Of a DNA stretch of 64,000 nucleotides, positions 28,839 through 48,394 are shown one piece after another; within the stretch, counting starts at the first letter, position 1, and the number at the start of each line of letters is the position of its first letter. Both the position numbers and the translations under genes were made by a program. The notes under the pieces are model-generated. The model made no database searches and had not been told where the DNA came from. It was given only the letters and a program-made list of their open reading frames with translations. The stretch comes from Methylotenera sp. (GTDB lineage Bacteria > Pseudomonadota > Gammaproteobacteria > Burkholderiales > Methylophilaceae): assembly GCF_030684185.1 (NCBI RefSeq), contig NZ_JAUXOY010000017.1:62001-126000 (forward strand), read 5' to 3'.

Positions 28839-28871
28839 TCTGATTCCTTATGCCGATTGATTTTTAGCTAC

Positions 28872-29873: not shown

Positions 29874-29923
29874 GGCTGGCTCCTAGGTTGGTAAAAAGTC
29901 GAGAAGGCGGCATTTAAAAAACG

Positions 29924-30024: not shown

Positions 30025-30083
30025 CTTTTTGAAACTTTAGCGGTTAGTGATCAAATTCACCGCTTTCTCGCTGATTATAGATA

Positions 30084-30100
30084 AGCAATCTGTATGCCAA
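30084..30100 (-). promoter_or_regulatory. Sigma-54 (-24/-12) promoter of the guanidine operon
   Basis: On the minus strand TTGGCATACAGATTGCT matches TTGGCAC-N5-TTGCW with exact GG-N10-GC spacing. Predicted transcription would begin near 30073, about 50 nt before the riboswitch. An NtrC-like palindrome lies about 117 nt upstream of that start. Confidence 0.8.
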
Positions 30101-30181
30101 CAGTAAGGTTAATTAAATATCATTAAAATTCAATTGGTTAGAATTTTAAATTCACATTAGCTACTTAAATATGAATTGTTT

Positions 30182-30198
30182 TGCACCACTTAAGTGCT
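30182..30198. promoter_or_regulatory. NtrC-type enhancer palindrome
   Basis: TGCACCACTTAAGTGCT matches GCAC-N7-GTGC, the NtrC binding pattern. A half-site GCAC follows at 30214, about three helical turns away. The position, roughly -117 from the predicted sigma-54 start, is typical for an activator site. Confidence 0.6.
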
Positions 30199-30236: not shown

Positions 30237-30965
30237 TTAACACCAATCAGGATTAGGAATCTCGGCAAAGACTTTACGTAAGCCCTCCCCCCAATGTTGA
30301 CGGACAGAAAGGAAATAAGGGTCGTCTTTAGCAACACGATGACGATAATCAATAATTAACTTATCCTTACGATAAACCAACACATCAACCGGCAAATCAA
30401 CTGAAACATTACTGCGTATCGTAGAGTCGAATGAAATCAGCACACACTTAAGTGCATCTTCAAGGCTACAGTTGTAATTAATCACTCGGTCTAGAATAGG
30501 TTTGCCATATTTGGTTTCACCTGTTTGAAAATAAGGTGTTTCCTGGCTAGCCTCAATGAAATTACCCGCAGAATAGATATTGAAAAGTCGTGGTCGCTCG
30601 CCGAGTATTTGTCCGGCAAAAAGTACAGAAATATTAAAATCCGTATTGTGATGTCGTAGATACTCCGCATCTTCTCGATGCACGGTTCGAATGGCTGCAC
30701 CAATAATGCGCGCTGCATCGAACATATTGGACACCTTGAGAAGGTTTACTTCATCATCGGCATCAATGGCCTTATGCAAATGCTGCAACACCGCTTGAGT
30801 AACCGCAAGATTGCCGGCTGTAAGCATGACCATAGAACGCTCACCCGGCACTTCAAACGTAGTCATTTTAGGAAAGGTTGCAACTTGGTCCACTCCCGCA
30901 TTAGTGCGAGTGTCCGACGCCATCACCAACCCTGATTCGAGTAGCATTCCCACACAATAGGTCAT
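30237..30965 (-). CDS. Anbu-type proteasome-like peptidase
   Basis: A 242-residue Ntn-hydrolase of the Anbu (ancestral beta subunit, HslV-related) family. The candidate nucleophile is Thr2 in MTYCVGM, with Asp18 in ASDTRTNAG and Lys33 in FPKM in proteasome-like positions. Anbu assembles into rings or helical oligomers. It is known to co-occur with circularly permuted ATP-grasp, alpha-E and transglutaminase genes, the first of which is divergent from it here. A role in degrading or processing a product tagged by these ligases is inferred. Confidence 0.88.
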   Translation of the reverse strand: MTYCVGMLLESGLVMASDTRTNAGVDQVATFPKMTTFEVPGERSMVMLTAGNLAVTQAVLQHLHKAIDADDEVNLLKVSNMFDAARIIGAAIRTVHREDAEYLRHHNTDFNISVLFAGQILGERPRLFNIYSAGNFIEASQETPYFQTGETKYGKPILDRVINYNCSLEDALKCVLISFDSTIRSNVSVDLPVDVLVYRKDKLIIDYRHRVAKDDPYFLSVRQHWGEGLRKVFAEIPNPDWC

Positions 30966-31065
30966 AAAAGCAACTTGGTAAGTAAAGCATTAATAATAGC
31001 TTCATAAACAGCATACAGGCAACACTTTAACTGGCTATTTAACCTGAATCGCTTCTATAGCGCTA

Positions 31066-31082
31066 ATGGCACTGATATTGCT
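31066..31082 (+). promoter_or_regulatory. Sigma-54 (-24/-12) promoter of the ATP-grasp/alpha-E gene
   Basis: ATGGCACTGATATTGCT has TGGCAC, five spacer bases and TTGC, with GG-N10-GC spacing. Expected start near 31093, giving a leader of about 74 nt before the ATG at 31167. No NtrC palindrome was recognised in the spacer; an enhancer could lie inside the Anbu gene. Confidence 0.75.
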
Positions 31083-31166
31083 TAATGATATGGTTAACTT
31101 CAACATTCAGCTTCACCCTAAAAATGATTTTGAGCATAGAATATAGTAAAGCTTTCGAGATTTAAG

Positions 31167-33746
31167 ATGTCAACTTTAAGTCAATACTCAAACACCGCAG
31201 AAGATAGCGCCTGGCTAAAGGGTGTTGCTGGGTATACGCCTGAAGCCAACATTGTTGATGAGATGCTCGACAGCACAGGGAAAGTACGACCGCATTGGGA
31301 ATATTTTATACAGGCATTGCAAAAACTTGGGCATGATGAAATTAGGTTGAGGCAGAATGAAATTCTCAAACTGTTGCGCGAAAACGGCGTTACTTACAAT
31401 GTCTATGGCGATCCTGATGGCAGTAACCGACCATGGCAATTAGATCCTGTTCCACTACTCATTGAAAATGACGAATGGACCAATATTGAGACTGGGTTAT
31501 TAGAACGTGCAGAACTGCTCAACCTTATTCTTGCTGATATTTACGGCCCGCGCGAACTTATTCAAAAAGGTTTATTACCTGTAGATCTGCTTTTCAGCCA
31601 TAGCGGATTCTTAAGGGCTTGCGATAAAGTCAAAATTCCAGGTAAGCATCAATTAGTGCTTTATGCCGCCGATTTGGCACGAGGTCCTGATAATCGCATG
31701 TGGGTGATTGGCGACCGCACGCAAGCGCCTTCAGGCGCTGGTTATGCTTTGGAAAACAGATTAGCCATGTCGCGTGTATTTCCAAATATTTTTCGCGATT
31801 CACGTGTGCAGCGATTAGATGGTTTTTTCCAATCATTGCGCAATGCGCTGCAACAAATTGCACCGCAAAATGCTGATACTCCCAGAGTTGTTGTTCTGAC
31901 ACCAGGACCTTTTAATGAAACCTTTTTTGAGCATGCCTATCTTGCTTCACACCTTGGGTATCCTTTGGTACAAGGTGATGACCTCACCGTACGAGATGGC
32001 TTTGTTTGGCTCAAGTCACTTAATGGCTTGCAACGTGTTGATGTCATTATGCGTCGTGTTGATGACAGTTTTTGTGATCCGCTAGAATTACGTGAAGATT
32101 CACGTTTGGGTGTTCCAGGTTTACTCGAAGTTGCAAGGCGAGGCAATGTCACCATTGCCAATCCTTTAGGCAGCGGTGTGTTGGAAAGTCCTGGTTTATT
32201 GCCCTTTCTGCCCAAGATTGCCGAGCATTTTTTTGGCAAGCAATTACGCTTACCGAGTGCTGCAACTTGGTGGTGCGGTCAAGCTAAAGAGCTTAACTAT
32301 GTGCTTAGCAATTTGCACAAACTGGTCATCAAGCATATTTGTCGAGGCTCGATGACTTCAGTATTTGGCCACCTCCTCAGCCAACAGCAAATTATCGGTT
32401 TGCGTGACCGCATTCGATCTAATCCCGCATTATTTGTTGGTCAAGCGCATGAAAGTTTTTCTACCGCGCCATCTTTTGTCGCTGGTCATTTGGAGCCGCG
32501 CCAAGCATTATTGCGCTGTTTTCTGGTAGCCCAAGGGCAAGGTTACAGTTTGATGCCTGGAAGCCTTACACGCAGCGCGGCACAACAAGGTAATGTGCCA
32601 GTATCAAACCAGATGGGTGCCATCAGTAAAGATACTTGGGTGATTGGGGGTCAAAATCCGAATCAAGCAAACACCATTGAAACACCGCATTCAAAACTAT
32701 TAGCCAGCAATTACACCAGTACATTGTCCAGCAGGGTCGCTGAAAATTTATTTTGGGTAGGTCGCTATGCAGAGCGCACTGAGGGTAGCATCCGCTTACT
32801 GCGGACGACTGTTAAAAAACTTTATATCAACCCAGACATCAATAACCCGTATTACAAGAATAGTTTGTACGCAGTACTGCGTGGACTGACCAATATTACT
32901 AATACCTATCCAGGATTCCTTAATAAAGAGTCAGATTCCTTACTTAAAACACCAGACAGTGAACTACTTTCGCTGATGCTGGATGAGGAGAAAGTGGGAA
33001 GTATTGCTAATAACCAACGCAGCTTGATACAAGCTGGTTATTCAGTACGTAATCTCTGGTCTTCTGATACTTGGCGCGTCATGGATGAGATTAAATGCCA
33101 TCTTGAGCGGTCGCAACAGCTTACCGAATCCACACTATGGAATATTCAGGAACACATGGATAGGCTAATTACTGCACTCTCGGCCTTCAGCGGGTTGATT
33201 ATGGAAAGCATGACTCGTGGAAATGGTTGGCTATTTTTAGATATGGGTCGCAGATTAGAGCGAGCGTTATTGCTCATCTCATTATTACGCAGTGGTTTTT
33301 CTTCTGCACAGGCAGAAGGTACTGAGATTCTTTTGATGGAATCTTTGCTGGATACCAGCGACAACCTTATTTGCTATCGCCAGCATTACCGTAACAGTAT
33401 TGAACTGCCTTCTTTTATCGAATTACTGATTCTGGATAAAAACAATCCGCGCTCTTTGGCCTATCAATTCAATCGTATTCAAGAACACGTTAGCAAAATG
33501 CCACGAAAGCAGACAAATACCCAGCTGAGTATAGAAGAACGGCTGATTCTAGAAGCAAACAGCCTGCTTGATCTGACCAATTTAAGCGACCTAATTAAAG
33601 TTTCTGACGGAAATGTACGGGAAAAGTTTGACCAAACTCTAAGTCGACTTTATTACTTGCTGGCTACATTATCTGACACTGTTACCGCTACTTATTTTCA
33701 ACACGGTCAGCCGCAGCATTCACTCGTCGCCGTGAAACCAGCGTAA
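31167..33746 (+). CDS. Circularly permuted ATP-grasp / alpha-E fusion protein
   Basis: An 859-residue two-domain protein. Residues about 25-490 are a circularly permuted type 2 ATP-grasp ligase (ENGVTYNVYGDPDG, GDRTQAPSGAGYALENRLAM, VDVIMRRVDDSFCDPLELR), and about 520-850 an alpha-E domain (SSRVAENLFWVGRYAERTEG). In many bacteria these are two separate genes, as at 43-45 kb in this window. ATP-grasp members form acid-amine bonds; alpha-E is a helical domain of unknown role. Followed by a transglutaminase gene. Confidence 0.9.
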   Translation: MSTLSQYSNTAEDSAWLKGVAGYTPEANIVDEMLDSTGKVRPHWEYFIQALQKLGHDEIRLRQNEILKLLRENGVTYNVYGDPDGSNRPWQLDPVPLLIENDEWTNIETGLLERAELLNLILADIYGPRELIQKGLLPVDLLFSHSGFLRACDKVKIPGKHQLVLYAADLARGPDNRMWVIGDRTQAPSGAGYALENRLAMSRVFPNIFRDSRVQRLDGFFQSLRNALQQIAPQNADTPRVVVLTPGPFNETFFEHAYLASHLGYPLVQGDDLTVRDGFVWLKSLNGLQRVDVIMRRVDDSFCDPLELREDSRLGVPGLLEVARRGNVTIANPLGSGVLESPGLLPFLPKIAEHFFGKQLRLPSAATWWCGQAKELNYVLSNLHKLVIKHICRGSMTSVFGHLLSQQQIIGLRDRIRSNPALFVGQAHESFSTAPSFVAGHLEPRQALLRCFLVAQGQGYSLMPGSLTRSAAQQGNVPVSNQMGAISKDTWVIGGQNPNQANTIETPHSKLLASNYTSTLSSRVAENLFWVGRYAERTEGSIRLLRTTVKKLYINPDINNPYYKNSLYAVLRGLTNITNTYPGFLNKESDSLLKTPDSELLSLMLDEEKVGSIANNQRSLIQAGYSVRNLWSSDTWRVMDEIKCHLERSQQLTESTLWNIQEHMDRLITALSAFSGLIMESMTRGNGWLFLDMGRRLERALLLISLLRSGFSSAQAEGTEILLMESLLDTSDNLICYRQHYRNSIELPSFIELLILDKNNPRSLAYQFNRIQEHVSKMPRKQTNTQLSIEERLILEANSLLDLTNLSDLIKVSDGNVREKFDQTLSRLYYLLATLSDTVTATYFQHGQPQHSLVAVKPA

Positions 33747-33761
33747 TAAGAGGCGTTGATA

Positions 33762-34661
33762 ATGCATTACAAAGTCACGCATGTTACTCAATATGATTAT
33801 AGCGATACAGTCGGTCTTTCCTACAACGAGGCTAGACTGATGCCGCGTAATTGTGTGAATCAGCAGGTCATATCATCAACGCTGAATGTTGAGCCTTATG
33901 CGGCTGACTTCCGTATCAGAGAAGATTTTTTTGGCAACCGAGTGGCATATTTTTCTATCCAGCAACCGCACCATGTTTTCACCGTCACGGCTGTGAGTGA
34001 AGTGCAACTGATGGAGAATACATCCCAACTGGATTTTTATCAGGGATTTGCCTGGGAAACAGTGCGAGAGATGTTATCGCAGCAGCATTCGCACTACTTA
34101 AAACAAGCATCTGATTTGATAGAAGCACGTCAGTACACGCTGGATTCCCCGCTAATTGAAACCAGTTTACAACTGGCTGAATATGCAAAGCCATCGTTCA
34201 CTCAAGGCCGATCAGTTACCGATACAGTAAATGATTTAATGCAACGTATCTATCGTGATTTTACATTTGACCCAGACTTCACAACCCTTGCGACTCCGTT
34301 AGCTTCTGTGTTGGAACATCGGCGCGGTGTTTGTCAGGACTTTGCACACCTGGCGATTGGTTGTCTGCGTTCACAAGGTCTGGCAGCTCGCTATGTCAGT
34401 GGCTACATAGAAACTTTACCGCCCCAAGGCGAAGAAAAACTAGTAGGCGCTGATGCATCGCATGCTTGGTTTTCAGTATATATACCCGAACAAGGCTGGC
34501 TTGATTTTGACCCTACCAACAATATCATCCCTAATACTCAGCACATCACTTTGGGTTGGGGTCGCGATTATGGTGACATCGCACCACTAAAAGGCGTGAT
34601 TTTTGGCGGCCAAAATCACGAGCTGGAAGTATCAGTTCAAGTTGAATGTTTGACGAATTAA
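33762..34661 (+). CDS. Transglutaminase-like cysteine protein (copy A)
   Basis: About 299 residues with the N-terminal beta domain (MHYKVTHVTQYDYSD) and a transglutaminase core. The triad is intact: Cys in RRGVCQDFAH (about 191), His in DASHAWFSVY (about 234), Asp in GWLDFDPTNN (about 250). Members may cleave or form isopeptide bonds. The ATG at 33762 is chosen over a TTG two codons upstream. It is cotranscribed with the ATP-grasp/alpha-E fusion, 15 nt after its stop. Confidence 0.9.
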   Translation: MHYKVTHVTQYDYSDTVGLSYNEARLMPRNCVNQQVISSTLNVEPYAADFRIREDFFGNRVAYFSIQQPHHVFTVTAVSEVQLMENTSQLDFYQGFAWETVREMLSQQHSHYLKQASDLIEARQYTLDSPLIETSLQLAEYAKPSFTQGRSVTDTVNDLMQRIYRDFTFDPDFTTLATPLASVLEHRRGVCQDFAHLAIGCLRSQGLAARYVSGYIETLPPQGEEKLVGADASHAWFSVYIPEQGWLDFDPTNNIIPNTQHITLGWGRDYGDIAPLKGVIFGGQNHELEVSVQVECLTN

Positions 34662-34692
34662 AAGTCACCAAACACTTAAACCTCTCTTTAGT

Positions 34693-37488
34693 TCAACCCG
34701 TATTTCGTAAGCCAGCCGCTATGCCATTAATAGTTAAATGGATAGCACGCTTGATGAGCACGTCTGTTTCACCGTTACGGTGTCTTTTAATCAAAGCGAC
34801 TTGCAGATGATTAAGTGGATCAAGATAAGGCAGTCGACTCCTAATCGAATTGGCCAATGCTGGATTGTTGGCAAGACGCTCTGTGCTTTGCAGAATCAGA
34901 TTAAGTGCCTGGCTGGTTAAAGCGTGCTCTTTTTTTATACGCTCGAAAACGGTTTTTCTAAGTACTTCATCCTCCACCAAATCTGAATAGCAGGCGGCTA
35001 TGGTCAAATCAGTTTTAGCCAAAATCATATCCATATTGGAAATCAAAGTTTTGAACAATGGCCAATCTGACAGCATGTCTCTTAATACATTGATACGCTG
35101 TTCTTTTTCAGAGGCATCTTTGCTTGTGTTTAAATAAGCGTCAATAGCGCTACCGAAGCCATACCAGCCAGATAACAGCAGGCGACATTGTCCCCATGAA
35201 AATCCCCAAGGGATTGCGCGCAGGTCTTCTATGCGTTGAGTGGATTTACGAGAGGCCGGGCGGCTTCCAAGATTCAATTCGGCGATCTCTGAAATTGGTG
35301 TTGAACTAAAAAAGTAATCTGCGAATCCTGGTGTTTCATACACCAGGTTACGGTAAGTAGTCATTGCGGTAGCTGACAACTGATCCATTAACATTTCGTA
35401 TGCCCTGCGTTGAGGTTTTGGCAACTGATCTTGAGGAAATAAAGAAGCATCTATTGTCGCAGCAATGAGCGCTTCTAGATTCCGCCTTGCAACCTTAGGG
35501 TCAGAAAATTTGTTGGCGATGATTTCCCCTTGTTCAGTCAAGCGTATCTGTCCAGCTACGGTGCCAAGTGGCTGAGCCATAATGGCCTGATAGGTAGGTC
35601 CGCCACCTCTTCCAACTGCACCGCCACGTCCATGAAATAAACGTAACTTTACGCCTGCCTGACAGAATAGCTCAACTAAGTAAACCTCGGCTTTATACAG
35701 CTCCCAGTTTGAAGTCAGAAATCCACCATCCTTGTTGCTATCAGAATATCCAAGCATGATTTCCTGCTCATTACCTTGATAGCGAATCAAATGACGGATA
35801 CCAAGCAGACTCAGCCATTCACTCATAATTTTTGGCGCATTGCGCAAATCATCAATGGTTTCAAACAAAGGCACTATATTCAGGTCCATTTGCACGCTGC
35901 CAGAACCCCATATGCCTCGTAATAACCCTGCCTCTTTTTGTAATAAAGCCACTTCTAATAAGTCTGATAAGGTTTCAGTGTGCGAAATAATGTAGTGGCG
36001 AACTGTTCTCGCCCCAAATTTAGCGCGCATTTGGCTGGCTTTTCTAATCACTTCCATTTCTGACATCAGTAATTCTGAATATTTTTGAAATGGTGAGAAT
36101 AGAAGTCTTGGTTGCTTAAGTTCTTCTAAAAGTACATTTATCTTTTCCGTTTCAGTCAATACAGCATAATTAAAACTGTACCCCGCGTTAAACAATAATT
36201 CTTTTAATACAGCTTCATGAACATCTGAACTTTGTCTTAAATCTATGGTGGCTAGATGAAAACCAAATGTTTCAACTGCCTTAATAAGCTTACCTAATCT
36301 AGGATAAACCAGTAGTTCACCATGATTTTTAATCAGAGAGTTGGCGATAATATTGAGATCAGAAAGCAACTCTTCCGGTCCTGAATAAGGCAATAAGGAT
36401 TCTGTAAGATGATTATCAATATGCAGGCTTGCTTCATTTCCTGTTAATTGCTGAAAACTAAGCGATAGCCGAGCAATAATGGAGGTAATTGCCAGGCGAT
36501 AAGGCTCATCCTGCCGATGTGGGGATTGATCTTGTGAGGTACTAGCTAAATTGAGCAGCTCTTGAGTCACGCTGACTAACCGTGTCGTAGGAGTCAGTTC
36601 TCGTCGCAAACTGCTTACTTCTTTTAGATAATGCTCAATCGCAACCGTGGATTGCTGTGTTGTAGCCATCTCTAATGTTGCTGCATTCACATTGGGGTTA
36701 CCATCACGGTCGCCCCCGATCCAGCTGCCCATCTGTAAAAAGCTAGGTAGCTGATAACGTTCTATACCTGATTGGCTGAATAGATCGCCAATATCCTGCT
36801 CCAAATCCTGCAATAATTCAGGGATTGCATCCAATAAGCTCAACCGATAATAGGAAAGTGCATTGTCGATCTCATTGTTCACCGTCAGCTTGTCAAACCG
36901 GAGCATTCTGGTTTGCCATAAAGCGGTCACAGCCGCATAGAGCATTCGAGAGTTTTTCTCCGTTTCCTGACGCGACATGAGTAGCGCTTTGTTTGCCAGC
37001 AAGGATGAAATCACATGTTCAGTATCAAGCAGGCTTTTTCTTTGAACTTCAGTGGGGTGTGCGGTTAATACTGGGGAAATTAAGGCTGACTTAAAAAAAG
37101 CATCAATCTCGTTCAAATCAAGATTGGCTTTTTTGAAAGAACTCATAGAATGGGCTATTCCACCCGGTGTTTCAGCATTTTCTTCAATCCTGATTTGGTG
37201 ATTGCTATAGAGATCTTCAGCAATATTGACCAGATGTTTAAAATAGCTGAAGGCTCTGACCACCGCGATTGTCTGGCTGGTTGTGAGATCTTTTAGCAAT
37301 ACATCTAAATTCCTTGTGAATTCTTGATCACCCTCACGATGAAATTTCACGGCTGATTGGCGGATTGCTTCAATGACATCAAAAGTTTTTTCACCTTCAT
37401 TATCTTTGATTACTTCGCCAAGAATACGCCCAAGATAACGGATATTTTCTTTTAAAATGTTCTCAGCAAGCATCGCAGGCGCATACAT
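34693..37488 (-). CDS. ppc: Phosphoenolpyruvate carboxylase
   Basis: Carboxylates PEP to oxaloacetate, replenishing the TCA cycle and serving C1 metabolism in methylotrophs. The 931 residues match the family. Catalytic motifs are present: TAHPTEVQRKS (about 140), GGDRDGNPNV (about 257), FHGRGGAVGRGGGPTY (about 620) and the C-terminal RNTG. It is convergent with the upstream transglutaminase gene and lies 73 nt after the DUF2126 gene's end, so it interrupts the amidoligase locus without obvious functional connection. Confidence 0.97.
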   Translation of the reverse strand: MYAPAMLAENILKENIRYLGRILGEVIKDNEGEKTFDVIEAIRQSAVKFHREGDQEFTRNLDVLLKDLTTSQTIAVVRAFSYFKHLVNIAEDLYSNHQIRIEENAETPGGIAHSMSSFKKANLDLNEIDAFFKSALISPVLTAHPTEVQRKSLLDTEHVISSLLANKALLMSRQETEKNSRMLYAAVTALWQTRMLRFDKLTVNNEIDNALSYYRLSLLDAIPELLQDLEQDIGDLFSQSGIERYQLPSFLQMGSWIGGDRDGNPNVNAATLEMATTQQSTVAIEHYLKEVSSLRRELTPTTRLVSVTQELLNLASTSQDQSPHRQDEPYRLAITSIIARLSLSFQQLTGNEASLHIDNHLTESLLPYSGPEELLSDLNIIANSLIKNHGELLVYPRLGKLIKAVETFGFHLATIDLRQSSDVHEAVLKELLFNAGYSFNYAVLTETEKINVLLEELKQPRLLFSPFQKYSELLMSEMEVIRKASQMRAKFGARTVRHYIISHTETLSDLLEVALLQKEAGLLRGIWGSGSVQMDLNIVPLFETIDDLRNAPKIMSEWLSLLGIRHLIRYQGNEQEIMLGYSDSNKDGGFLTSNWELYKAEVYLVELFCQAGVKLRLFHGRGGAVGRGGGPTYQAIMAQPLGTVAGQIRLTEQGEIIANKFSDPKVARRNLEALIAATIDASLFPQDQLPKPQRRAYEMLMDQLSATAMTTYRNLVYETPGFADYFFSSTPISEIAELNLGSRPASRKSTQRIEDLRAIPWGFSWGQCRLLLSGWYGFGSAIDAYLNTSKDASEKEQRINVLRDMLSDWPLFKTLISNMDMILAKTDLTIAACYSDLVEDEVLRKTVFERIKKEHALTSQALNLILQSTERLANNPALANSIRSRLPYLDPLNHLQVALIKRHRNGETDVLIKRAIHLTINGIAAGLRNTG

Positions 37489-37561
37489 TTTTTCATCTCC
37501 CAGTAAGTTTTTTGAATGGCAGACTTTTTATATCAGTCTTTTCATATCAAGTTTTATGCTG

Positions 37562-40930: not shown

Positions 40931-40933
40931 AAA

Positions 40934-42166
40934 TTAACCAGCACTTTCGGCTTGCAACAACCGTAAATTCTCTTCAACACCAGCCGCTTCAGTCAGTTCT
41001 GCTACATTTTGTTTGGTAAAAAAACCATCAAAATCGCCAAAGCGTTGCACGTATTCAATGATGAGTGACGAATGTTCTGAAGCACTGGAGAAAATCTGTT
41101 TGAGGCCTTCTTCACGTGAGCCAATCACATCCAATAAAAAGTCTTTACCTTTCTCTCTGATTGCATCGACTACATAGTCAATGTTGATTTGACCTTTGGT
41201 CTCACCATCAGCCACACCAAGTGCAATATGATGTAATCGAGGACCGTAGTTGCGCACGAAATTTTCGGTGGGCGATGGCAAACCTACTAAATGATTCACA
41301 AAATAAGGATGATTAGCAGCGGTAAACACCTTGGCTGGACTATGTCGTTCATCGTCATAGTGTGCACTTTTAGTGACGTTGGTTGAAGAATTTTGACTGG
41401 TAATGTCGTACGAGCCCCAGTAGTAATAGCTGGAAAGCGTCAAGTATTCAAGTATCGCCACTTCACGGTTTTGGCTATAGATACGCGTAGCTAAATGATC
41501 TATCGGCAGAATTAACTTATCTAAGCCAAGTTTTGCTTGTGTTTCTTTGGCTTCAAGATAACCACGATTCACATCGTTGTGAATAACACTGACTCCCAAA
41601 GCATATACACGGATATCCTCGGGTGGACGTTCCCAATAACCTGCAATATTATGCGTATAGGGTGACGGTTTAACGATTGCCATATTGCCAGGCAGTTCCA
41701 GTTTACGAATTTGATCCTGATTAAAAAAACGGATCTCCCGTGCTTTTTGTAGTTCTACAACCTCATGCAGATTGGTGACACGGAAAATCTCGCCCATATA
41801 ACGCGAATTGGGTTTATGTGCCCCTATCGGATAGACGTCATTTAGACTGCGAAATATTCCGTGTAAATTTGGATCACGCACTTCTCTCACAATAATATCA
41901 GGTGAATTCATGTCGATTCGCAAAACATGAGTCCAGTGAGATTCTGACTCAAGCGTAACCAAGTAATGATAAGGCGTCATCAATGCCAGTTCGCTGATAT
42001 AGGCTACTGAACAGCCTGGCTCAACGGTAATCATCATCGCGTCTATTTCATGCACCATATCAGTTAAACCGATACGATCGCGATCTTCTAATAGCTTGGG
42101 CAGAAATTCTTCAAACCAAGGTGAATTGACCTTGTCGCCGTGACGCTGAAATTGCAGTGAGTTCAT
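40934..42166 (-). CDS. HPPD-like VOC-fold protein of unknown function
   Basis: A 410-residue protein I cannot name. The C-terminal half resembles 4-hydroxyphenylpyruvate dioxygenase: LILPIDHLATRIY (His224), GPRLHHIALGV (His313) and SSLIIEYVQRFG (Glu371) give a plausible two-His-one-Glu iron site, and the end GFFTKQNVAELTEA mimics the HPPD tail. The N-terminal half (about 1-215) has no clear relative. It lies between the DUF2126 and the Ser-variant transglutaminase genes, suggesting an oxidative step in the locus. HPPD itself is unlikely given the context and divergent N terminus. Confidence 0.65.
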   Translation of the reverse strand: MNSLQFQRHGDKVNSPWFEEFLPKLLEDRDRIGLTDMVHEIDAMMITVEPGCSVAYISELALMTPYHYLVTLESESHWTHVLRIDMNSPDIIVREVRDPNLHGIFRSLNDVYPIGAHKPNSRYMGEIFRVTNLHEVVELQKAREIRFFNQDQIRKLELPGNMAIVKPSPYTHNIAGYWERPPEDIRVYALGVSVIHNDVNRGYLEAKETQAKLGLDKLILPIDHLATRIYSQNREVAILEYLTLSSYYYWGSYDITSQNSSTNVTKSAHYDDERHSPAKVFTAANHPYFVNHLVGLPSPTENFVRNYGPRLHHIALGVADGETKGQINIDYVVDAIREKGKDFLLDVIGSREEGLKQIFSSASEHSSLIIEYVQRFGDFDGFFTKQNVAELTEAAGVEENLRLLQAESAG

Positions 42167-42227
42167 TAAGTAGCCTGTAGTTGAAAAACTATATATTTTG
42201 AAAAATAGATTGAATGCCGAGTTTCAG

Positions 42228-42263
42228 TTACTGCTGTATTTACTGCTGTATTTACTGCTGTAA
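42228..42263. repeat. Three 12-bp tandem copies covering a stop codon
   Basis: TTACTGCTGTAT is repeated at 42228-42239, 42240-42251 and, with one change, 42252-42263. On the minus strand each unit reads Gln-Gln-stop, so the TAA of the transglutaminase gene is present three times in the same frame. Confidence 0.85.
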
Positions 42264-43082
42264 TTGCTGTTGTACTTGCGACATTTCCTGTACTTTAAAA
42301 TTGACGGACATCTGCTGATGGCCAATATCGCGCATTACGCTGCTAATTGGACAGGCATCCCGGTAATCCAGTCCTGTGGCAAGCCGCACATGCACGCCGT
42401 TTGAAGGTACATTATTAGCCACATCAAAGCTTTGCCAACCAGCGCCAACCAGCCAGGCGTCCGCCCAGCTATGGTTTTCAAGCTGATTGCTGACTGGATT
42501 AAAACAATAACCATGCACAAACCTTGCAGGTACTTTCAATACTCTACAACAAGCGATAAAAAGGTGTGCCAAACCCTGACTCAACCCTTTGCCACTCGAT
42601 AGCGCATCAATGGCAGATTGCTGACTATCATCAGCATCTTTAGTCCACTTCACGGTTTGTGAAATGCCATTCATTAAAGCCATCAGCAGGTCTTTATCGA
42701 TTATTTGACCTTGTGGTAAAAATCCATGCGCAAACTGGCGAATTTCTTCATTCACTTGTGTAAGTCTGGTATGACGAAGGTAGACAGGCAATGCCAAATC
42801 ATCTGGTCTTATTACAGGGCTTACTGGCACTTCAATATCAGTTTCCACCTCTCCACTCGCAGTAATAATAATTTCCTGATGAGGAGAATCCATCACCAGC
42901 GTATGCGTTGCATTGCCAAAGGCGTCAATCTGCGGTGAGGTTTTACCACTTACTTTGACATGCCAATTACTCACACGCTGACCAAAACCATCCTGCGGGG
43001 TTAGACGCAGTTGTTGAATGGTATAAGCGACGGGCTTGTTAAATGCATACCGGGTGCTGTGCTCTATATTGAGTTTCATCAT
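42252..43082 (-). CDS. Transglutaminase-like protein with Cys-to-Ser change (copy C)
   Basis: About 276 residues with the same architecture as its paralogues. The catalytic position reads GKGLSQGLAHLF, with Ser168 where the others have GxCxD/ExA; His204 (ENHSWADAW) and Asp220 (GWQSFDVANN) remain. The codon is AGT, one base from TGT (Cys). It may be a noncatalytic binding partner or use serine. The ATG at 43082 follows GAGAG; the TTG at 43097 is less likely. Located 22 nt after the alpha-E gene. Confidence 0.88.
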   Translation of the reverse strand: MMKLNIEHSTRYAFNKPVAYTIQQLRLTPQDGFGQRVSNWHVKVSGKTSPQIDAFGNATHTLVMDSPHQEIIITASGEVETDIEVPVSPVIRPDDLALPVYLRHTRLTQVNEEIRQFAHGFLPQGQIIDKDLLMALMNGISQTVKWTKDADDSQQSAIDALSSGKGLSQGLAHLFIACCRVLKVPARFVHGYCFNPVSNQLENHSWADAWLVGAGWQSFDVANNVPSNGVHVRLATGLDYRDACPISSVMRDIGHQQMSVNFKVQEMSQVQQQLQQ

Positions 43083-43104
43083 TACTCTCTCATTCAATTA
43101 TTAT

Positions 43105-44103
43105 TTAGCTTTGGTACTGTTCCAGTGTACTCACTGATTCATCTAGACCTGCTTCATTAAGGCTAGGTGCATTTAGATAAGTGCGTTGAATCTCTATGCC
43201 CAGGCGGTTGTTATGCCTGAGGAATGACTCTAAAAATTCATGCAGCCCACCCCGGAAAATGTCTTCAATGCGCCCGTAATGCAGGCTAGAGTGCATCTCG
43301 CCTGCCTGACGTTTACATTCACGACCGGCATCACCACTCAATTGGTCCAGGATATTGGTAAGTTCATCCATACAAGCATGCAGTGATCGTGGCATGTCGT
43401 GACGCAAAACAAGTAGTTCAGCCACGCGCAACGGCATTACGGCATCGCGATAAACTTTTAAATAGGCTTCATAAGCACTGGCAGAACGCAATAATGCACT
43501 CCACTCGTAATAATCCACCGCGCCGCCCACATCACTAGCTGAAGGTAATAATAGGTGGTACTTAACATCCAGCAGGCGTGCCATATCATCTGCCCGTTCG
43601 ATAAACCCGCCCAATCGGGTAAATCGAAAGCCATCATCACGTAACATCGTGCCGTATGTAACTCCGCGGAATAGATGCGAACGTGATTTCACCCAGTCAC
43701 AAAACTCTGACAAGCCGCTATCCAAAATAAGCAGCTTGTCCATTTGCTGGAATTCAAGCCATAGGCTATTGATGTTCTCCCACATTTCTGAAGACATCGC
43801 CACCCTTACAGCGTGCGCATTTTCGCGTGCAGCACGGAGGCAGTTGTAAATGCTGGATAAATTACGCTCATCCATTGCAATGTAATAAATCACATTGCGT
43901 GCAGTAACTTCGTCATAAGTTGCTTGGAAATCTTCAACGGTATCTGATATATGCAAAAGTGGTACCCAAAGTGCGGCTTCACTTTGAGCGGCATTTTGTA
44001 CTAACGACATGCGATAGGTAACATCAAGCATGCGCGCCATATTTTCGGCACGCTCAATATAACGTGCCATCCAGTAAAGGTGATCTGCGGTACGGCTTAA
44101 CAT
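43105..44103 (-). CDS. Alpha-E domain protein
   Basis: 332 residues, all helical, beginning with MLSRTADHLYWMARYIERAE, the family's typical start. It overlaps the ATP-grasp gene by 7 nt (ATG inside the end of the upstream frame); a GTG at 44115 is less likely. It equals the C-terminal part of the 859-residue fusion at 31-34 kb. The alpha-E domain is known only from these operons and may act as a partner of the ATP-grasp ligase. Confidence 0.9.
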   Translation of the reverse strand: MLSRTADHLYWMARYIERAENMARMLDVTYRMSLVQNAAQSEAALWVPLLHISDTVEDFQATYDEVTARNVIYYIAMDERNLSSIYNCLRAARENAHAVRVAMSSEMWENINSLWLEFQQMDKLLILDSGLSEFCDWVKSRSHLFRGVTYGTMLRDDGFRFTRLGGFIERADDMARLLDVKYHLLLPSASDVGGAVDYYEWSALLRSASAYEAYLKVYRDAVMPLRVAELLVLRHDMPRSLHACMDELTNILDQLSGDAGRECKRQAGEMHSSLHYGRIEDIFRGGLHEFLESFLRHNNRLGIEIQRTYLNAPSLNEAGLDESVSTLEQYQS

Positions 44104-45533
44104 TGCAGCACCCACGTATCTTTCGTACCGCCGCCTTGCGATGAGTTCACCACTAATGAACCTTCATTCATGGCGACGCGACAAAGTGCACCTGGTACGA
44201 CGGTAGTTGTTTTTCCAGTCAATACATACGGACGCAAATCTACATGCCGAGGGGCCACGCCTTGTTCTACCAAGGTTGGACAGGTTGAAAGCGCCAGCGT
44301 AGGCTGGGCAATGTAATTGTCTGGATTGGCAAGGATGCGTAGACGGAAATCTTCAATCTGTGATTTACTTGAGGTAGGGCCAACCAGCATGCCGTAGCCA
44401 CCTGAGCCCTGTACTTCTTTAACGACTAACTCAGCCAGATGCTCTAATACGTATTTTCTGTCATCTGCTACACTAAGTTTATAGGTAGGTACGTTAGACA
44501 ATATCGGTTCCTCACCCAAATAAAAACGGATCATTTCCGGCACATAGATATACGTGGACTTATCATCCGCCACCCCTGTACCGATGGCATTTGCAAGTGC
44601 AACGCCCCCATTGCGATAAACTGAAATCAACCCCGGTACACCTAGCATTGAATCTTGCCTGAATGCCAGCGGATCAATAAAGTCATCATCGATACGGCGA
44701 TAAATAACATCCACCTGTTTTGGGCCCTCCGTAGTGCGCATGAATACAGCGTTATCTTTCACAAACATATCCCGACCTTCGACTAATTCAATGCCCATCT
44801 GCTGCGCAAGAAAAGCATGTTCGAAGTAAGCACTGTTATAAGCTCCAGGCGTCATCAGCACCACGGTCGGATTGTTTGCTCCGCGCGGGGCAACGGCACG
44901 CAAATTTTCCAGCAACAGTTGCGGGTAATGCTCAACTGGTGCAATTGGATAATTGCGGAATAATTCTGGAAACAAGCGCATCATCATGCGTCGGTCTTCC
45001 AGCATGTATGAAACGCCAGAAGGTGTGCGTAAATTATCTTCCAGCACATAAAACGTATCGGCTTCGGTACGTACAATATCAATGCCGGCAATATGCGCAT
45101 AGACGCCGCCTGATACGTCAACGCCCTGCATTTCTGGCCGATACATTTCGTTGGTTAGAATGCTTTCCGGCACAACACCAGCTTTAATGATGTCTTGTCC
45201 GTGATAAAGGTCATTTAAAAACATATTGAGTGCCCGTACCCGCTGACATGCACCATCTGATAGCCGCTTCCACTCGTTTGCAGCTAAAATACGTGGGACA
45301 ACATCGAATGGAATCAAGCGTTCAGCACCCTCTTCCTCACCATAAACTGCAAAGGTGATGCCTACCCGACGAAACAACAGCTCAGCATCACGTGATTTTT
45401 GAGCAAGTTGTGAGAAGTCTTTTCCAGCTAACCAGTCAGCATAAGCTGCATATACTGGCCTAACCCCTTTTTTAGAGTCGAATGACTCGTCAAAGGCTGT
45501 CAGTATTTTATTTTTATAATCAATAGTAGCCAT
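44097..45533 (-). CDS. Circularly permuted type 2 ATP-grasp ligase
   Basis: 478 residues: GITFAVYGEEEGAER near residue 53, FYVLEDNLRTPSGVSYMLE (about 158), PKQVDVIYRRIDDDFIDPLA and the glycine-rich VVKEVQGSGGYGMLVGP (about 370) for ATP binding. The family is predicted to ligate a carboxylate to an amine. First gene of the operon ATP-grasp, alpha-E, Ser-transglutaminase, VOC, DUF2126. No Shine-Dalgarno precedes the ATG, and the best sigma-54 promoter predicts a leader of only about four bases. Confidence 0.9.
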   Translation of the reverse strand: MATIDYKNKILTAFDESFDSKKGVRPVYAAYADWLAGKDFSQLAQKSRDAELLFRRVGITFAVYGEEEGAERLIPFDVVPRILAANEWKRLSDGACQRVRALNMFLNDLYHGQDIIKAGVVPESILTNEMYRPEMQGVDVSGGVYAHIAGIDIVRTEADTFYVLEDNLRTPSGVSYMLEDRRMMMRLFPELFRNYPIAPVEHYPQLLLENLRAVAPRGANNPTVVLMTPGAYNSAYFEHAFLAQQMGIELVEGRDMFVKDNAVFMRTTEGPKQVDVIYRRIDDDFIDPLAFRQDSMLGVPGLISVYRNGGVALANAIGTGVADDKSTYIYVPEMIRFYLGEEPILSNVPTYKLSVADDRKYVLEHLAELVVKEVQGSGGYGMLVGPTSSKSQIEDFRLRILANPDNYIAQPTLALSTCPTLVEQGVAPRHVDLRPYVLTGKTTTVVPGALCRVAMNEGSLVVNSSQGGGTKDTWVLQC

Positions 45534-45547
45534 AATGATTAGCTACT

Positions 45548-45564
45548 TGCAAGGCGCGTGCCAA
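45548..45564 (-). promoter_or_regulatory. Sigma-54 promoter of the ATP-grasp/alpha-E/transglutaminase operon
   Basis: On the minus strand TTGGCACGCGCCTTGCA is a full match to the -24/-12 consensus with GG-N10-GC spacing. The expected start, near 45537, is almost at the ATG (45533). A weaker overlapping candidate, AAGGCAATGGCATTGCA (45570-45586), also has the right spacing and would give a leader of about 26 nt. Confidence 0.75.
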
Positions 45565-45618
45565 CTACATGCAATGCCATTGCCTTCTATATAGAATGCG
45601 CCTTACAGGCTTATTCAA

Positions 45619-45640
45619 GGCTAATTTTATTGAATTAGCC
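45619..45640. repeat. 8-bp inverted repeat in a 384-bp divergent spacer
   Basis: GGCTAATT (45619-45626) and AATTAGCC (45633-45640) frame a 6-nt loop in the spacer 45534-45917 between divergent operons. The spacer also has repeated GCAAGGCTA/CAAGGCTA-like elements near 45611, 45693 and 45750, and the two sigma-54 promoters at its ends. No ORF is seen. Possible regulator site. Confidence 0.4.
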
Positions 45641-45850
45641 CCTTGGGTTTTGCAAGCCATGAGACATAGCGCGCAGTTTTGGTGCAAGGCTAACTATTCA
45701 AGCCTATTGTTAGTGCGCCAGTATTAGAGCTAAACCTAGCAAGCCCAAGGCTAGCGTCATCTAGCAAGCAAAAAAAAACCATTTTATAAAATTCTTTTGC
45801 TGCCAATCGCAAAATAAAACATGTCCGCGAATTTTTTCAGCTACAGGGTG

Positions 45851-45867
45851 TTGGTACAATTATTGCA
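45851..45867 (+). promoter_or_regulatory. Sigma-54 promoter of the cytochrome b/transglutaminase operon
   Basis: TTGGTACAATTATTGCA fits TTGG(C/T)AC-N5-TTGCA with GG-N10-GC spacing. Predicted start near 45879, 39 nt before the ATG, with AAGGAG in between. Confidence 0.75.
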
Positions 45868-45917
45868 ACGTTTCTTATGTAGCATCTCATGCTAATGCAT
45901 GGAATAAGGAGTTTTTT

Positions 45918-46640
45918 ATGATTAAAGTATGGTCTATACCGACTCGATTGCTGCATTGGATTTTGGTGGGTGCCTTCTGTATCGCCTTTTATACTGCTAC
46001 TTCAGAGCTAAAGCGTGACATTCATGTGGAGGCAGGCTATGTAGCTGGTGCTGTGATAGTAATACGCTGGCTATACGGATTTTTAATGAAAGACTTTTCT
46101 GCATTTCGCCGATTTCCGCCCAATCCTGGTGCGGGATTCGCTTACATCACCAGTATTTTGACAGGCAAGCCTAAACGATACCTTGGTCATAATCCTGCTG
46201 GTGCGCTGGCCATCTATGCCATGCTTACCCTTGGACTGTTAACGATTTTGACTGGCTTCATGTCGTTTAACGACATCGCAATTCCATTTGGGTTGATGGA
46301 TGATGACCAGATTAAAGATTTTCATGATTTTGTTGCATATGCATGGTTGTGGACCGTTGGACTGCACTTGGTTGGCGTGGTCGTTGGCAGTTTGGTTCAT
46401 AGAGAGAATCTAATACTAGCGATGATCACTGGATTTAAACGCCGCAGACTAATCGGTGCAGGAAACCACTTACCGCCACTGCCGGCACATTATGAGATTT
46501 CTGACTCGCTGCATATGCAGTATATTGAAGAAGCTGCCTATTACATAGCTGAACGACAGGGATTTCAGGCGGATCATTCTTGGGAGTATTGGCTACAGGC
46601 TGAAAAAGAAGTGGCACATATGCTGAAAAATATTAAATAA
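45918..46640 (+). CDS. Cytochrome b561-type membrane protein with C-terminal DUF2934
   Basis: 240 residues. Residues 1-180 form a four-helix di-haem cytochrome b (IPTRLLHWILVGAF with the first haem His, HVEAGYVAGAVIVIRW, FHDFVAYAW and LHLVGVVVGSLVH). The C-terminal 55 residues (YIEEAAYYIAERQGF, EYWLQAEKEVAHML) match DUF2934, an unusual fusion. The ATG has AAGGAG 6 nt upstream. It leads an operon with two transglutaminase genes and may supply electrons to a redox step of the locus, which is inference. Confidence 0.85.
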   Translation: MIKVWSIPTRLLHWILVGAFCIAFYTATSELKRDIHVEAGYVAGAVIVIRWLYGFLMKDFSAFRRFPPNPGAGFAYITSILTGKPKRYLGHNPAGALAIYAMLTLGLLTILTGFMSFNDIAIPFGLMDDDQIKDFHDFVAYAWLWTVGLHLVGVVVGSLVHRENLILAMITGFKRRRLIGAGNHLPPLPAHYEISDSLHMQYIEEAAYYIAERQGFQADHSWEYWLQAEKEVAHMLKNIK

Positions 46641-46736
46641 TAAAAAGTTTAGTGAATTCAAAATTCCAGCTAACTCCTTTCTAAAAATGAAAACGAGATA
46701 GAATGCGCGGCTTATGTAAGCAAAAGGAGAATCACC

Positions 46737-47534
46737 GTGTGGCTTAGGACTAAATGCGAGATTAGCTTTGACGTCAGTATTGCTACACCGTTTATCCTTA
46801 TGCTTCGTCCGCGTAGTGGCTTACATCAATGGGTAGCGCGTGAATCATACACATTAAAACCCAGTGTGCCTGTGGTCGAATATACCGACAATTATGGCAA
46901 TCTTTGTCAGCGGCTAATCGCCCCGCCAGGTGAGTTTTGCATACGCACATCAGCAGATATACTCACCGCCGACAGTATTGACGTTTGTCCAGGAGCGCCT
47001 TTTGATGAAGTGCAGCACCTGCCTGATGAAGTTCTTACCTATCTTTTACCTACACGCTATTGTGAATCTGATCGGTTTATAGACCTTGGTCAGGAAATAG
47101 TGGCTGGTGTAGCGCCAGGCTATGACCAGGTAGCCACCATCGTAACGTGGATACGTGGCAATATTCGCTTCAATCCAGACTCCATCCACTTTCAGTTATC
47201 AGCGGTAGAAGTCAATCAACAACGTGAGGGAGTTTGCCGGGAACTCGCCCATTTAGGCATCGCCTTATGCCGAGGGTTGTGTATCCCTGCGCGTATGGTT
47301 GTTGGTTACCTGCATGGACTTGAACCTATGGATTTTCATGCCTGGTTTGAAGCCTATGTAGGCGGTCGCTGGTATACCTTTGACGCAACCCAGCCTTATC
47401 CAGTAGGTGGGCGTGTCACTGTAGCCTATGGAAGAGACGCAGCTGATGTTGCTATATTTAATCAGTTCGGCCCAGCTTTGTATCCTCAAGAAATGTCGGT
47501 TCACGTTGAGATGCTTGATTCAGCGCCGGATTAA
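46737..47534 (+). CDS. Transglutaminase-like cysteine protein (copy D)
   Basis: 265 residues with an intact triad: Cys in [12 protein letters not shown], His in [10 protein letters not shown], Asp in [13 protein letters not shown] start with AAGGAG 7 nt upstream. Its N-terminal half differs from copies A and E, so it is a distinct subfamily. It follows the cytochrome b gene by 96 nt and is followed 5 nt later by copy E. Confidence 0.88.
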
Positions 47535-47539
47535 ACGTC

Positions 47540-48394
47540 ATGCAAAGGTTGCGCATTAAACATTTGACGGAATATCTCTTTCCAACGCAGGTGACGTTAA
47601 ATCAGCATAGGCTTCTATTACGACCACGCGAGGGGCATGATGTACGCATTGAGTCTTCCAAGTTAGAAATAACGCCTGCGTATAATATTCAATGGCAGCG
47701 TGATGTATTTGATAATTCCCTGGCAATCGTCAACTTCCTGGAGCGTTCAAACAAACTAACCATTGCCAGTGAAGTGATGATTCAACATTACGATCAAGCG
47801 CCTTATGACTTTATGGTTGAGCATTACGCAGTCAGATATCCTTTTGCATATGCGCTGGATGAACAAGTTGATCTGGCGGCATTTCAGCAGCCTATCTTTT
47901 ATAAAGATCAATATATTGTTAACAGTTGGCTGCAACTACTCGGATTAAACGGCATGGAGACCTTTGGCTTGCTGATGAAATTAAATCAGATGATTAGCCA
48001 GCAGTTCCGTTACCAAATAAGAGAAGAAGCTGGCGTACAATCGCCGTCACAGACGTTATCGCAGCGTAGCGGATCATGCCGCGATTACGCTACACTTTTA
48101 ATAGAAGCTTGTCGCTGTCTTGGTTTGGCTAGTCGATTTGTCAGCGGTTATTTACACGCGCCCGCAACCGAGGCTGGCAATGCGACCACCCATGCCTGGG
48201 TTGAGGTCTATTTGCCAGGCACAGGCTGGAAGGGTTTCGACCCTACATCAGGCGAGGTAACGGGCAATCGGCATATTGCAGTAGCAGTAGCGCGAAACCC
48301 GGAAGCAGTTCCTCCAGTCTCAGGTAGCTTCATAGGATTAGGTTTGATAGCACCAAAGATGGTAGTTGATGTACAGGTTAACTTGCTTGCCTGA
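47540..48394 (+). CDS. Transglutaminase-like cysteine protein (copy E)
   Basis: 284 residues with the beta domain (MQRLRIKHLTEYLFPTQV) and intact triad: Cys in RSGSCRDYATLL, His in TTHAWVEVYLPG, Asp in GWKGFDPTSG. It is closest in motif to the N-terminal domain of the DUF2126 fusion (both GSCRD). It probably ends the cytochrome b operon. Confidence 0.9.
   Translation: MQRLRIKHLTEYLFPTQVTLNQHRLLLRPREGHDVRIESSKLEITPAYNIQWQRDVFDNSLAIVNFLERSNKLTIASEVMIQHYDQAPYDFMVEHYAVRYPFAYALDEQVDLAAFQQPIFYKDQYIVNSWLQLLGLNGMETFGLLMKLNQMISQQFRYQIREEAGVQSPSQTLSQRSGSCRDYATLLIEACRCLGLASRFVSGYLHAPATEAGNATTHAWVEVYLPGTGWKGFDPTSGEVTGNRHIAVAVARNPEAVPPVSGSFIGLGLIAPKMVVDVQVNLLA

Follow-up and report, generated by a model that had tools for sequence, protein, structure and literature searches.

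A Methylotenera supercluster with two apparently non-equivalent ATP-grasp/alpha-E modules, one probably under nitrogen control, and a probable Fe(II) oxygenase of HPPD fold

Gene content and organization of the locus

The window analysed here, a 64,000-nucleotide stretch of Methylotenera sp. DNA, contains between positions 30237 and 48394 a supercluster in which Pfam profile searches recovered, each in its place, all the domains listed by a first-pass annotation, namely Anbu, ATP-grasp, alpha-E, transglutaminase (TGase), DUF2126 and cytochrome b. On the minus strand, a split operon carries adjoining genes for a circularly permuted ATP-grasp protein (44097..45533; PF14403, 9e-164), an alpha-E protein (43105..44115; PF04168, 1.2e-102; no PDB relative found by sequence) and a TGase-like protein, TG3 (42252..43097; PF01841, 3.7e-17), in the same order as in the Anbu operon described in excerpts of PMC6376114 and PMC5666114; the first two genes overlap by 19 nt and alpha-E is separated from TG3 by 7 nt. 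Unlike the described operon, the one found here extends into a 410-aa protein with a predicted fold like that of 4-hydroxyphenylpyruvate dioxygenase (HPPD; 40934..42166, minus strand) and, after a gap of 3 nt, into a TGase-like domain fused to a putative amidoligase (TG2-DUF2126; 37562..40930, minus strand; PF01841, 6.9e-18; PF09899, E = 0). Anbu itself, a proteasome-beta-like Ntn-hydrolase (30237..30965, minus strand; PF00227, 2.2e-08; related to the PDB Anbu structures 5nyw, 5lox, 5nyj and 5nyf), belongs to the same supercluster but lies outside the operon, 11 kb from TG3. It adjoins a second ATP-grasp gene on the plus strand, encoding an 859-aa circularly permuted ATP-grasp fused to alpha-E (FUS; 31167..33746; PF14403, PF04174 and PF04168; 3n6x_A, 2.3e-98), which is followed by a further TGase-like gene, TG1 (33756..34661, plus strand; PF01841, 2.6e-19). 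The position of Anbu outside the split operon recurs in the other hybrid clusters of the family.

A PEP carboxylase gene in the middle of the cluster (34693..37488, minus strand; PF00311, NF000584) had been overlooked. At the far end, the plus strand encodes a cytochrome b561-type membrane protein with a C-terminal DUF2934 (45918..46640; PF01292, 6.6e-20; PF11154, 4e-08) and two more TGase-like proteins, TG4 (46737..47534; PF01841, 3.8e-23) and TG5 (47540..48394; PF01841, 1.8e-21). The cluster is neighboured by a guanidine/urea operon with a type III glutamine synthetase; as a conserved partner this operon was set aside, its guanidine riboswitch having not been found in five other loci.

The cluster genes had been proposed to form one unit, an idea to be given up if they scattered independently in relatives and never shared regulation. 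No such scatter is seen in the core, whose ATP-grasp, alpha-E and Anbu genes share an identical set of 42 of 60 family genomes. The description of this version as unusually elaborate calls for qualification, since it reflects in part the meeting here of two operons that are often apart in relatives.

Split and fused ATP-grasp/alpha-E cores

A close relative of the split ATP-grasp in the PDB is 3n6x, a putative glutathionylspermidine synthase (3n6x_A, 2.5e-256), also a circularly permuted ATP-grasp by Pfam, for which we know of no tested activity. The profile matched no PDB chain except 3n6x, so that it gave no sequence link to a true glutathionylspermidine synthetase, and assignment to that enzyme by profile was rejected. 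The family-invariant residues of the split protein are intact: E165, N167 and the glycine loop, to which we ascribe a metal/ATP role by analogy with glutathionylspermidine synthetase, are invariant in all 74 split copies, the window's copy counted, and by these residues the split ATP-grasp would qualify as an active ligase. The fused ATP-grasp would not. All 24 FUS proteins (again including that of the window) have A, S or G at the E165 position and R at the N167 position, their glycine loop is degenerate and G378 and G381 are retained in none, whereas the ER motifs of the alpha-E part are kept. Because residues invariant in 74/74 split copies are missing from 24/24 fused ones, the fused ATP-grasp looks catalytically dead, and a pair of active ATP-grasp ligases was rejected for FUS on this ground.

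The duplicated core noted in the first-pass annotation therefore has to be read differently, both as a local duplication and as two working ligases. The latter reading is unsupported because the FUS ATP-grasp looks dead and TG3 has lost its cysteine. As to the former, a recent duplication was rejected, the split and fused copies belonging to distinct, old lineages with different neighbours; the two ATP-grasp/alpha-E cores are two old modules. The FUS protein of the window falls in a clade with Gallionella and Sideroxydans, not in the clade usual in the family.

FUS occurs in 20 of the 60 family genomes, all of them among the 22 that are DUF2126-positive (chance 5.5e-14, kinship ignored), and the gene order TG2-DUF2126, FUS, TG1 was found in 11 loci of relatives. 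All three genes of this DUF2126 operon are present here, but DUF2126 sits in the other, split operon. DUF2126 is not mentioned in the literature searched. Its predicted model is poor (pLDDT 67), and the best 27 Foldseek matches obtained with it, all glutamine synthetases or relatives (Dop, GmaS), are weak (best E 0.013).

Transglutaminase-like proteins

The Cys-His-Asp triad is present in four of the five TGase domains, since only TG3 deviates. It is intact in TG1 (GVCQD/SHAW/FDPTN), TG4 and TG5, and in TG2 it was recognised by eye in the translated sequence. TG3 has GLSQG where most relatives have GVCQD, a C-to-S change that takes away the catalytic cysteine, so the TGase-like member of the Anbu-type operon does not appear competent here. 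Loss of the TG3 cysteine goes together with DUF2126 in the same operon: it was seen in 7/7 distinct genomes carrying TG3 there, near-duplicate loci having been merged by hand, versus 1/22 without DUF2126 (Fisher 5e-6, kinship uncorrected). We suggest that TG2 may substitute for TG3. The hybrid operons comprise 21 loci, or 17 once 4 copies are discounted; a Cys-less TG3 occurs in 7 of the 17, and the remaining 10 (7 from Methylomonas, 1 from Gallionella and 2 from Methylotenera MAGs) have no TG3; many wider operons also have no TG3 though DUF2126 does not follow or is absent from the fetched stretch, which counts against a simple replacement of TG3.

The Cys-less copies nevertheless appear to be still constrained. 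In the two pairs with usable dS (1.04 and 1.89; saturated pairs were left out), dN/dS of Cys-less TG3 was about 0.10, compared with 0.038 and 0.053 for alpha-E in the same pairs. With full-length copies and a ratio of this order, the interpretation of TG3 as a decaying pseudogene is not favoured.

The HPPD-fold protein

The gene between TG3 and DUF2126 had been annotated as a VOC protein. This identity stands as far as the predicted fold is HPPD-like, and draws no support from sequence families, the protein having no significant Pfam match (best 0.14) and no NCBIfam match at 0.001. The AlphaFold model (pLDDT 78.5) has the two-domain fold of HPPD and hydroxymandelate synthase: the best Foldseek E-value to these enzymes was 3.5e-13, and all 50 matches listed were one or the other (probability 1.00, TM 0.45-0.55 on the query). 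H224, H313 and E371 align with the H, H and E metal ligands of HPPD, albeit in a single hhalign comparison with a probability of only 19.8% (E 0.0012), and are invariant in 52/52 HPPD-fold sequences. The register of these positions points to a putative 2-His-1-Glu metal site, making the protein a probable Fe(II) oxygenase. Unlike HPPD and hydroxymandelate synthase, to which it shows 10-17% identity among the chains listed, it is tied to alpha-E genomes and does not match the HPPD family model. HPPD proper was rejected on the latter ground (NCBIfam at 0.001), the model, TIGR01263, having no match in this genome. Hydroxyglutarate synthase (DUF1338) was likewise rejected, being absent among the 50 folds listed.

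Membership of the gene in the system, as first proposed, is borne out by its co-occurrence with the core in both family and class genomes. The full-length protein is found in 30 of the 60 family genomes, all 30 ATP-grasp-positive, and in 23 of 274 class genomes (some as remnants), all 23 alpha-E-positive (chance 2.8e-14, kinship ignored). From 224 HPPD-fold loci found, 80 were kept for survey; in 60 of these the fetched stretch includes a core gene, and the remaining 20 all come from alpha-E-positive genomes. The lone exception seen was a 64-residue HPPD-like fragment in a genome (G042) without ATP-grasp. In the genomes checked, the gene is thus confined, one short fragment aside, to genomes with the rest of the system. 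The reverse does not hold: alpha-E occurs in 79 of the 274 class genomes, and because 56 of these 79 have no HPPD-fold gene, the core does not need the HPPD-fold protein. Its hosts are methylotrophs and sulfur or iron oxidisers, those of the genera Methylomonas and Methylovorus having simpler versions of the cluster. None of the terms 'dioxygenase', 'glyoxalase', 'vicinal oxygen' and 'HPPD' appears in the two Anbu papers (PMC6376114 and PMC5666114).

Regulation of the split operon

Promoter and operator sites were scored against sigma-54 and NtrC consensus strings. A sigma-54-like site matching at 12/12 positions, TGGCACGCGCCTTGCA (45548..45563, minus strand), starts 30 nt before the first start codon of the split operon and therefore leaves almost no leader; a site of this type is similarly placed in many relatives. 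Overall, a sigma-54-like site lies within 250 nt upstream of 47/73 ATP-grasp genes (window included), versus 23/585 control ORFs. Such sites are scarce ahead of the other genes (FUS, 3/23 at no less than 10/12; Anbu, 3/53; DUF2126, 8/46). An 11/12 site, TGGCACTGATATTGCT (31067..31082, plus strand), starts 100 nt before the FUS gene of the window and is not conserved, because only those 3 of 23 FUS genes have one scoring at least 10/12. A 10/12 site before the cytochrome b/TG4/TG5 genes (45852..45867, plus strand) is at chance level for one such site. A window-wide excess of sites was rejected, with 6 at 10/12 or better versus 6.7 in random sequence; it is position alone that is telling, not number in the window.

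Upstream of the split operon there is also an NtrC-box-like sequence, TGCACCAAAACTGCGCG (45670..45686, minus strand), which is weak, its score of 9/12 being reached by 13% of random 300-nt stretches. Boxes of at least 10/12 are found in 24/74 ATP-grasp upstream regions versus 199/12780 random 300-nt stretches. Taken over the family of loci, site and upstream boxes suggest that the split operon is probably under sigma-54 and NtrC control. The shared regulation supposed for the whole cluster accordingly holds up for this operon, with sigma-54-like sites before it in most loci examined, and was not shown for FUS, Anbu or the cytochrome b/TG4/TG5 genes. Homologues elsewhere respond to nitrogen. 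Excerpts of PMC5491218 report a 6- to 9.4-fold drop in an ntrC mutant of Burkholderia cenocepacia for the genes of DUF404/407, DUF403 and both TGases. In those of PMC8050072, growth of Pseudomonas putida on nitrate versus ammonium raises ATP-grasp by log2 4.0 and Anbu by log2 4.4; the ATP-grasp promoter is induced 3.7-fold upon nitrogen depletion, and the promoter before Anbu is nitrogen-agnostic in a reporter.

Proposed pathway and alternative explanations

On balance, we judge it probable that the supercluster encodes an amide-bond pathway of nitrogen limitation (sigma-54, probably NtrC) in which two non-equivalent ligase modules have their hydrolases in common and are joined by an oxygenase. 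In the first module, the split ATP-grasp would use ATP to activate a carboxylate and, together with alpha-E, couple it to an amine, and the TGase-type enzymes and Anbu would cleave or transfer the bond so made; a Yersinia homologue of the ATP-grasp releases phosphate from ATP, according to sections of PMC6376114. In the second, the putatively glutamine-synthetase-like DUF2126 would be the active ligase, with its own TGase attached, and FUS would contribute alpha-E and a dead ATP-grasp that would serve DUF2126 in binding or as a scaffold. The HPPD-fold protein would act on the product or a substrate. These presumed modules, often separate in relatives, adjoin here with the housekeeping PEP carboxylase in between. 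Nitrogen control fits either of the products first considered, a peptide tag or a nitrogen store, and we are inclined towards a small nitrogen compound with an amide linkage, not a protein tag. The pathway has to reckon with the absence of Anbu peptidase activity on standard substrates and with the view in PMC5666114 that protein degradation is likelier than peptide synthesis. More tentatively, the HPPD-fold proteins could form an unrecognised family of ATP-grasp/alpha-E-dependent Fe(II) oxygenases that oxidise an amide-linked product formed when nitrogen is limiting in methylotrophs and in sulfur or iron oxidisers, with the fused ATP-grasp as an ancient pseudoenzyme scaffold of DUF2126.

Under the proposed pathway, the ligase worth purifying would be the split ATP-grasp, or else DUF2126, rather than the fused copy. 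The oxygenase-like protein narrows the possible product and offers an assay (dependence on iron, oxygen and an oxoacid), and nitrogen limitation would be the condition under which to seek the metabolite, in hosts of the Methylomonas or Methylovorus type.

We regard as somewhat unlikely a scavenging catabolism in which the hydrolases and the oxygenase would degrade an external or intracellular amide or amine for its nitrogen and the ligases would form gamma-glutamyl-type intermediates, as in the gamma-glutamylation routes for amines. Nitrogen control, seen in the sigma-54-like sites and in the Burkholderia and P. putida homologues (from the parts of PMC5491218 and PMC8050072 available), is in keeping with it, as are the adjoining guanidine/urea operon with its type III glutamine synthetase, the link of these domains to urea metabolism in metagenomes (excerpts of PMC3597751) and the occurrence of the HPPD-fold gene in methylotrophs and in sulfur or iron oxidisers; yet no transporter was seen to accompany the core repeatedly in the locus maps, whose only probes were window proteins, and the guanidine riboswitch was not found in five other loci.

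Protein tagging and turnover, in which the ligases would tag proteins with an amino acid or a peptide, the TGases would edit the tag and Anbu would degrade the tagged proteins under nitrogen starvation, goes back to older proposals recounted in PMC6376114 (excerpts) and seems unlikely to us. The cluster has no unfoldase by Pfam search, an HPPD-type oxygenase would have no obvious role, and Anbu stands outside the split operon both here and in the other hybrid clusters of the family; for Yersinia, the sections of PMC6376114 available report neither peptidase activity on standard substrates nor a specific complex of operon proteins. These points have to be set against Anbu residues T1, D17 and K32, all present in the translation, the identical distribution of ATP-grasp, alpha-E and Anbu, and the view in portions of PMC5666114 that the multiple active sites of the assembled ring, together with the binding of inhibitors, speak for a protease, protein degradation being favoured there and peptide synthesis rated less likely.

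That unrelated nitrogen genes have fallen together by chance is very improbable, being already refuted for the core by co-occurrence, by recurrent adjacency across families and classes and by the tight spacing of HPPD-fold with DUF2126 and of alpha-E with ATP-grasp, and could hold only for the PEP carboxylase and cytochrome b561 genes, which, like the guanidine operon, adjoin the cluster in few relatives or none. The PEP carboxylase, the sole copy found in the genome, lies within or next to the cluster in 7 of the 60 family genomes.

Organization of the proposed amide-bond cluster and its relatives

The domains from which the first-pass annotation had composed an amide-bond supercluster were all located at 30237-48394 of the window, in a genome of 2.72 Mb, and that observation stands. 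For the cluster, the evidence best supports a pathway for amide-bond chemistry under nitrogen limitation, in which an oxygenase-like accessory accompanies two unequal ligase modules. From 30237, the gene order is Anbu (- strand), FUS, in which a circularly permuted ATP-grasp is fused to alpha-E (+), the transglutaminase TG1 (+) and PEP carboxylase (-), then TG2 fused to DUF2126 (-), the HPPD-fold "VOC" protein (-), TG3 (-), alpha-E (-) and the split ATP-grasp (-), and finally cytochrome b561/DUF2934 (+), TG4 (+) and TG5 (+), up to 48394. The split genes form a single tight run, with a 19-nt overlap between alpha-E and ATP-grasp and gaps of 7 nt between TG3 and alpha-E and 3 nt between VOC and DUF2126.

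Independent scatter of these genes among relatives was not observed for the core: ATP-grasp, alpha-E and Anbu were each found in 42 of 60 Methylophilaceae genomes, the window's own included, and lists matched by eye gave the same 42. DUF2126 is present in 22 of the 60 (one copy incomplete, at the edge of its contig) and FUS, identified by its long reading frame, in 20, all among those 22. In gene maps, relatives usually carry one operon of split ATP-grasp, alpha-E, TG3, (VOC) and Anbu, and another of TG2-DUF2126, FUS and TG1 (11 loci). The window has pieces swapped between the two, with Anbu beside FUS and DUF2126 at the end of the split operon, and such hybrid operons also occur in Methylotenera MAGs, Methylomonas and one Gallionella MAG. 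The window's ATP-grasp falls in a tree set of 15 rows, comprising 12 hybrids and 3 others, with one further hybrid-like locus (L069) outside it; its FUS groups with Gallionella and Sideroxydans, away from the usual FUS of the family. The swapped architecture probably arose by transfer between methylotrophs, methanotrophs and iron oxidisers.

PEP carboxylase (34693-37488), the sole copy found in the genome, lies in or beside the cluster in 7 of 60 family genomes, the window's and six others, one of which (G018) lacks both DUF2126 and the HPPD-fold gene. TG4 and TG5 (46737-48394) accompany the cluster in several relatives, and Thiobacillus carries TG5-like genes (49-51% identity) near DUF2126. 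At locus L033 (genome G029) two Anbu-like genes adjoin each other; they share 41% and 28% identity with the Anbu of the window. A ~559-aa gene labelled by eye as ABC1/UbiB-kinase-like, absent from the window, immediately precedes the split operon at four loci; three more loci were assigned by length only.

Two unequal modules

The doubled, complete pathway proposed earlier needs correction, since FUS lacks E165, N167 and the glycine loop and TG3 lacks its cysteine. In the split ATP-grasp, E165, N167 and the loop S377-G381, which we take to bind metal and ATP by analogy with glutathionylspermidine synthetase, are among the columns invariant in 74/74 sequences. FUS has A, S or G at 165 and R at 167 in 24/24 sequences, retains G378 and G381 in none and G379 in 6. 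The sole match of the ATP-grasp profile in the PDB was 3n6x, and fold comparison of DUF2126 gave a weak pointer to glutamine synthetases. The restriction of FUS in the family to genomes with DUF2126 suggests that FUS may be a non-catalytic partner of DUF2126.

The TG3 motif reads GLSQG in the window versus GVCQD in most relatives, so that the catalytic cysteine is gone. Where TG3 shares an operon with DUF2126, the cysteine is replaced by S, Y or N in 7/7 distinct genomes, versus loss in 1/22 elsewhere (G016, GVGQD); near-duplicate loci were merged by hand for these counts, and the Fisher test ignores kinship. The Cys-less TG3 is under continuing constraint (dN/dS 0.10, two pairs). Any TG3 is missing from 10 of 17 distinct hybrid operons. 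TG3 is absent, too, from many wider alpha-E-VOC operons without adjoining DUF2126, and DUF2126 is therefore not the sole explanation. The role of TG3 may have passed to the transglutaminase fused to DUF2126.

A probable accessory protein with a predicted HPPD fold

The VOC protein had no convincing sequence match (best E = 0.14 in Pfam, nothing at 0.001 in NCBIfam, nothing up to E 10 among PDB sequences). An AlphaFold model was built from 52 sequences (pLDDT 78.5, pTM 0.82), and the 50 structural matches listed for it were without exception to HPPD or to hydroxymandelate synthase (best E 3.5e-13). In hhalign against 11 HPPD sequences (probability 19.8%, E 0.0012), H224, H313 and E371, invariant in 52/52 VOC sequences, align with the H, H and E of HPPD, presumably its metal ligands. 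HPPD proper was not found in this genome.

A scan of genome contigs gave 224 VOC loci; among the best 80, the closest named relatives of the window's gene are Methylotenera MAGs, and at 60 the retrieved stretch includes one core gene or more. The other 20, several on short contigs, all come from genomes with alpha-E. Across the class (274 genomes obtained of 300 requested), VOC occurs in 23 genomes of 21 genera, all within the 79 with alpha-E by lists matched by eye; the 23 include three remnants (one of 38 residues, one partial, one in two pieces) and two copies cut by contig ends. By coordinates, VOC lies within 10 kb of alpha-E in 12 of the 23. Every one of the 30 full-length copies in the family comes from a genome with ATP-grasp: 25 adjoin the split core and 5 adjoin FUS/DUF2126. 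G042, with a piece of 64 residues, is the lone exception. The nominal co-occurrence probabilities (2.8e-14 and 9.4e-8) are inflated by kinship, although the class hits cover 21 genera. At ten loci, HPPD-fold genes apart from the core have recurrent neighbours of their own, for example a 126-aa and a ~540-556-aa gene at four Methylococcales loci.

Probable nitrogen regulation and neighbouring operons

Scored against what we take to be the sigma-54 consensus, with GG and GC obligatory, a perfect site lies ahead of the split operon (45548-45563) and an 11/12 site ahead of FUS. Sites of at least 10/12 occur within 460 nt upstream of ATP-grasp in 58 of 74 regions, the window's and some from close relatives included, versus 1.8% of random stretches, and within 250 nt in 47/73 versus 23/585 other ORFs of the same loci. 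NtrC-box-like palindromes of at least 10/12 precede ATP-grasp in 24/74, versus 1.6% of random stretches. Among the 19 core-free VOC genes with an upstream region long enough to score, 7 have a sigma-54-like site (p 1.2e-5, with several closely related genes counted). Three observations speak against such regulation: the perfect site begins just 30 nt ahead of the start codon, sites are scarce before FUS (3/23), Anbu (3/53) and DUF2126 (8/46), and the window-wide total of sigma-54-like sites was not above chance. Published data agree in the main with nitrogen control: one study describes Burkholderia cenocepacia homologues as ntrC-dependent (PMC5491218), and another reports ATP-grasp and Anbu genes of Pseudomonas putida up on nitrate, with nitrogen depletion acting on the ATP-grasp promoter but not on the Anbu promoter (PMC8050072).

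Downstream of Anbu and on the same strand, a Guanidine-I riboswitch (29926-30031, -; 88.1 bits) heads an operon that, with its upstream sites, spans 18229-30198 (-) and encodes an ABC transporter, a creatininase-family protein, type III glutamine synthetase, UAAP1, UAAP2, a urea carboxylase-family protein and allophanate hydrolase; it is probably a guanidine-nitrogen operon. It has a 10/12 sigma-54-like site (30084-30099) and a 10/12 NtrC-like box (30182-30198). On the other side of the cluster, the protein at 50704-51792 matches an FkbO/Hyg5-like chorismatase N-terminal model, and acyltransferase, glycosyltransferase and MMPL-family genes follow in a biosynthetic cluster that looks unrelated.
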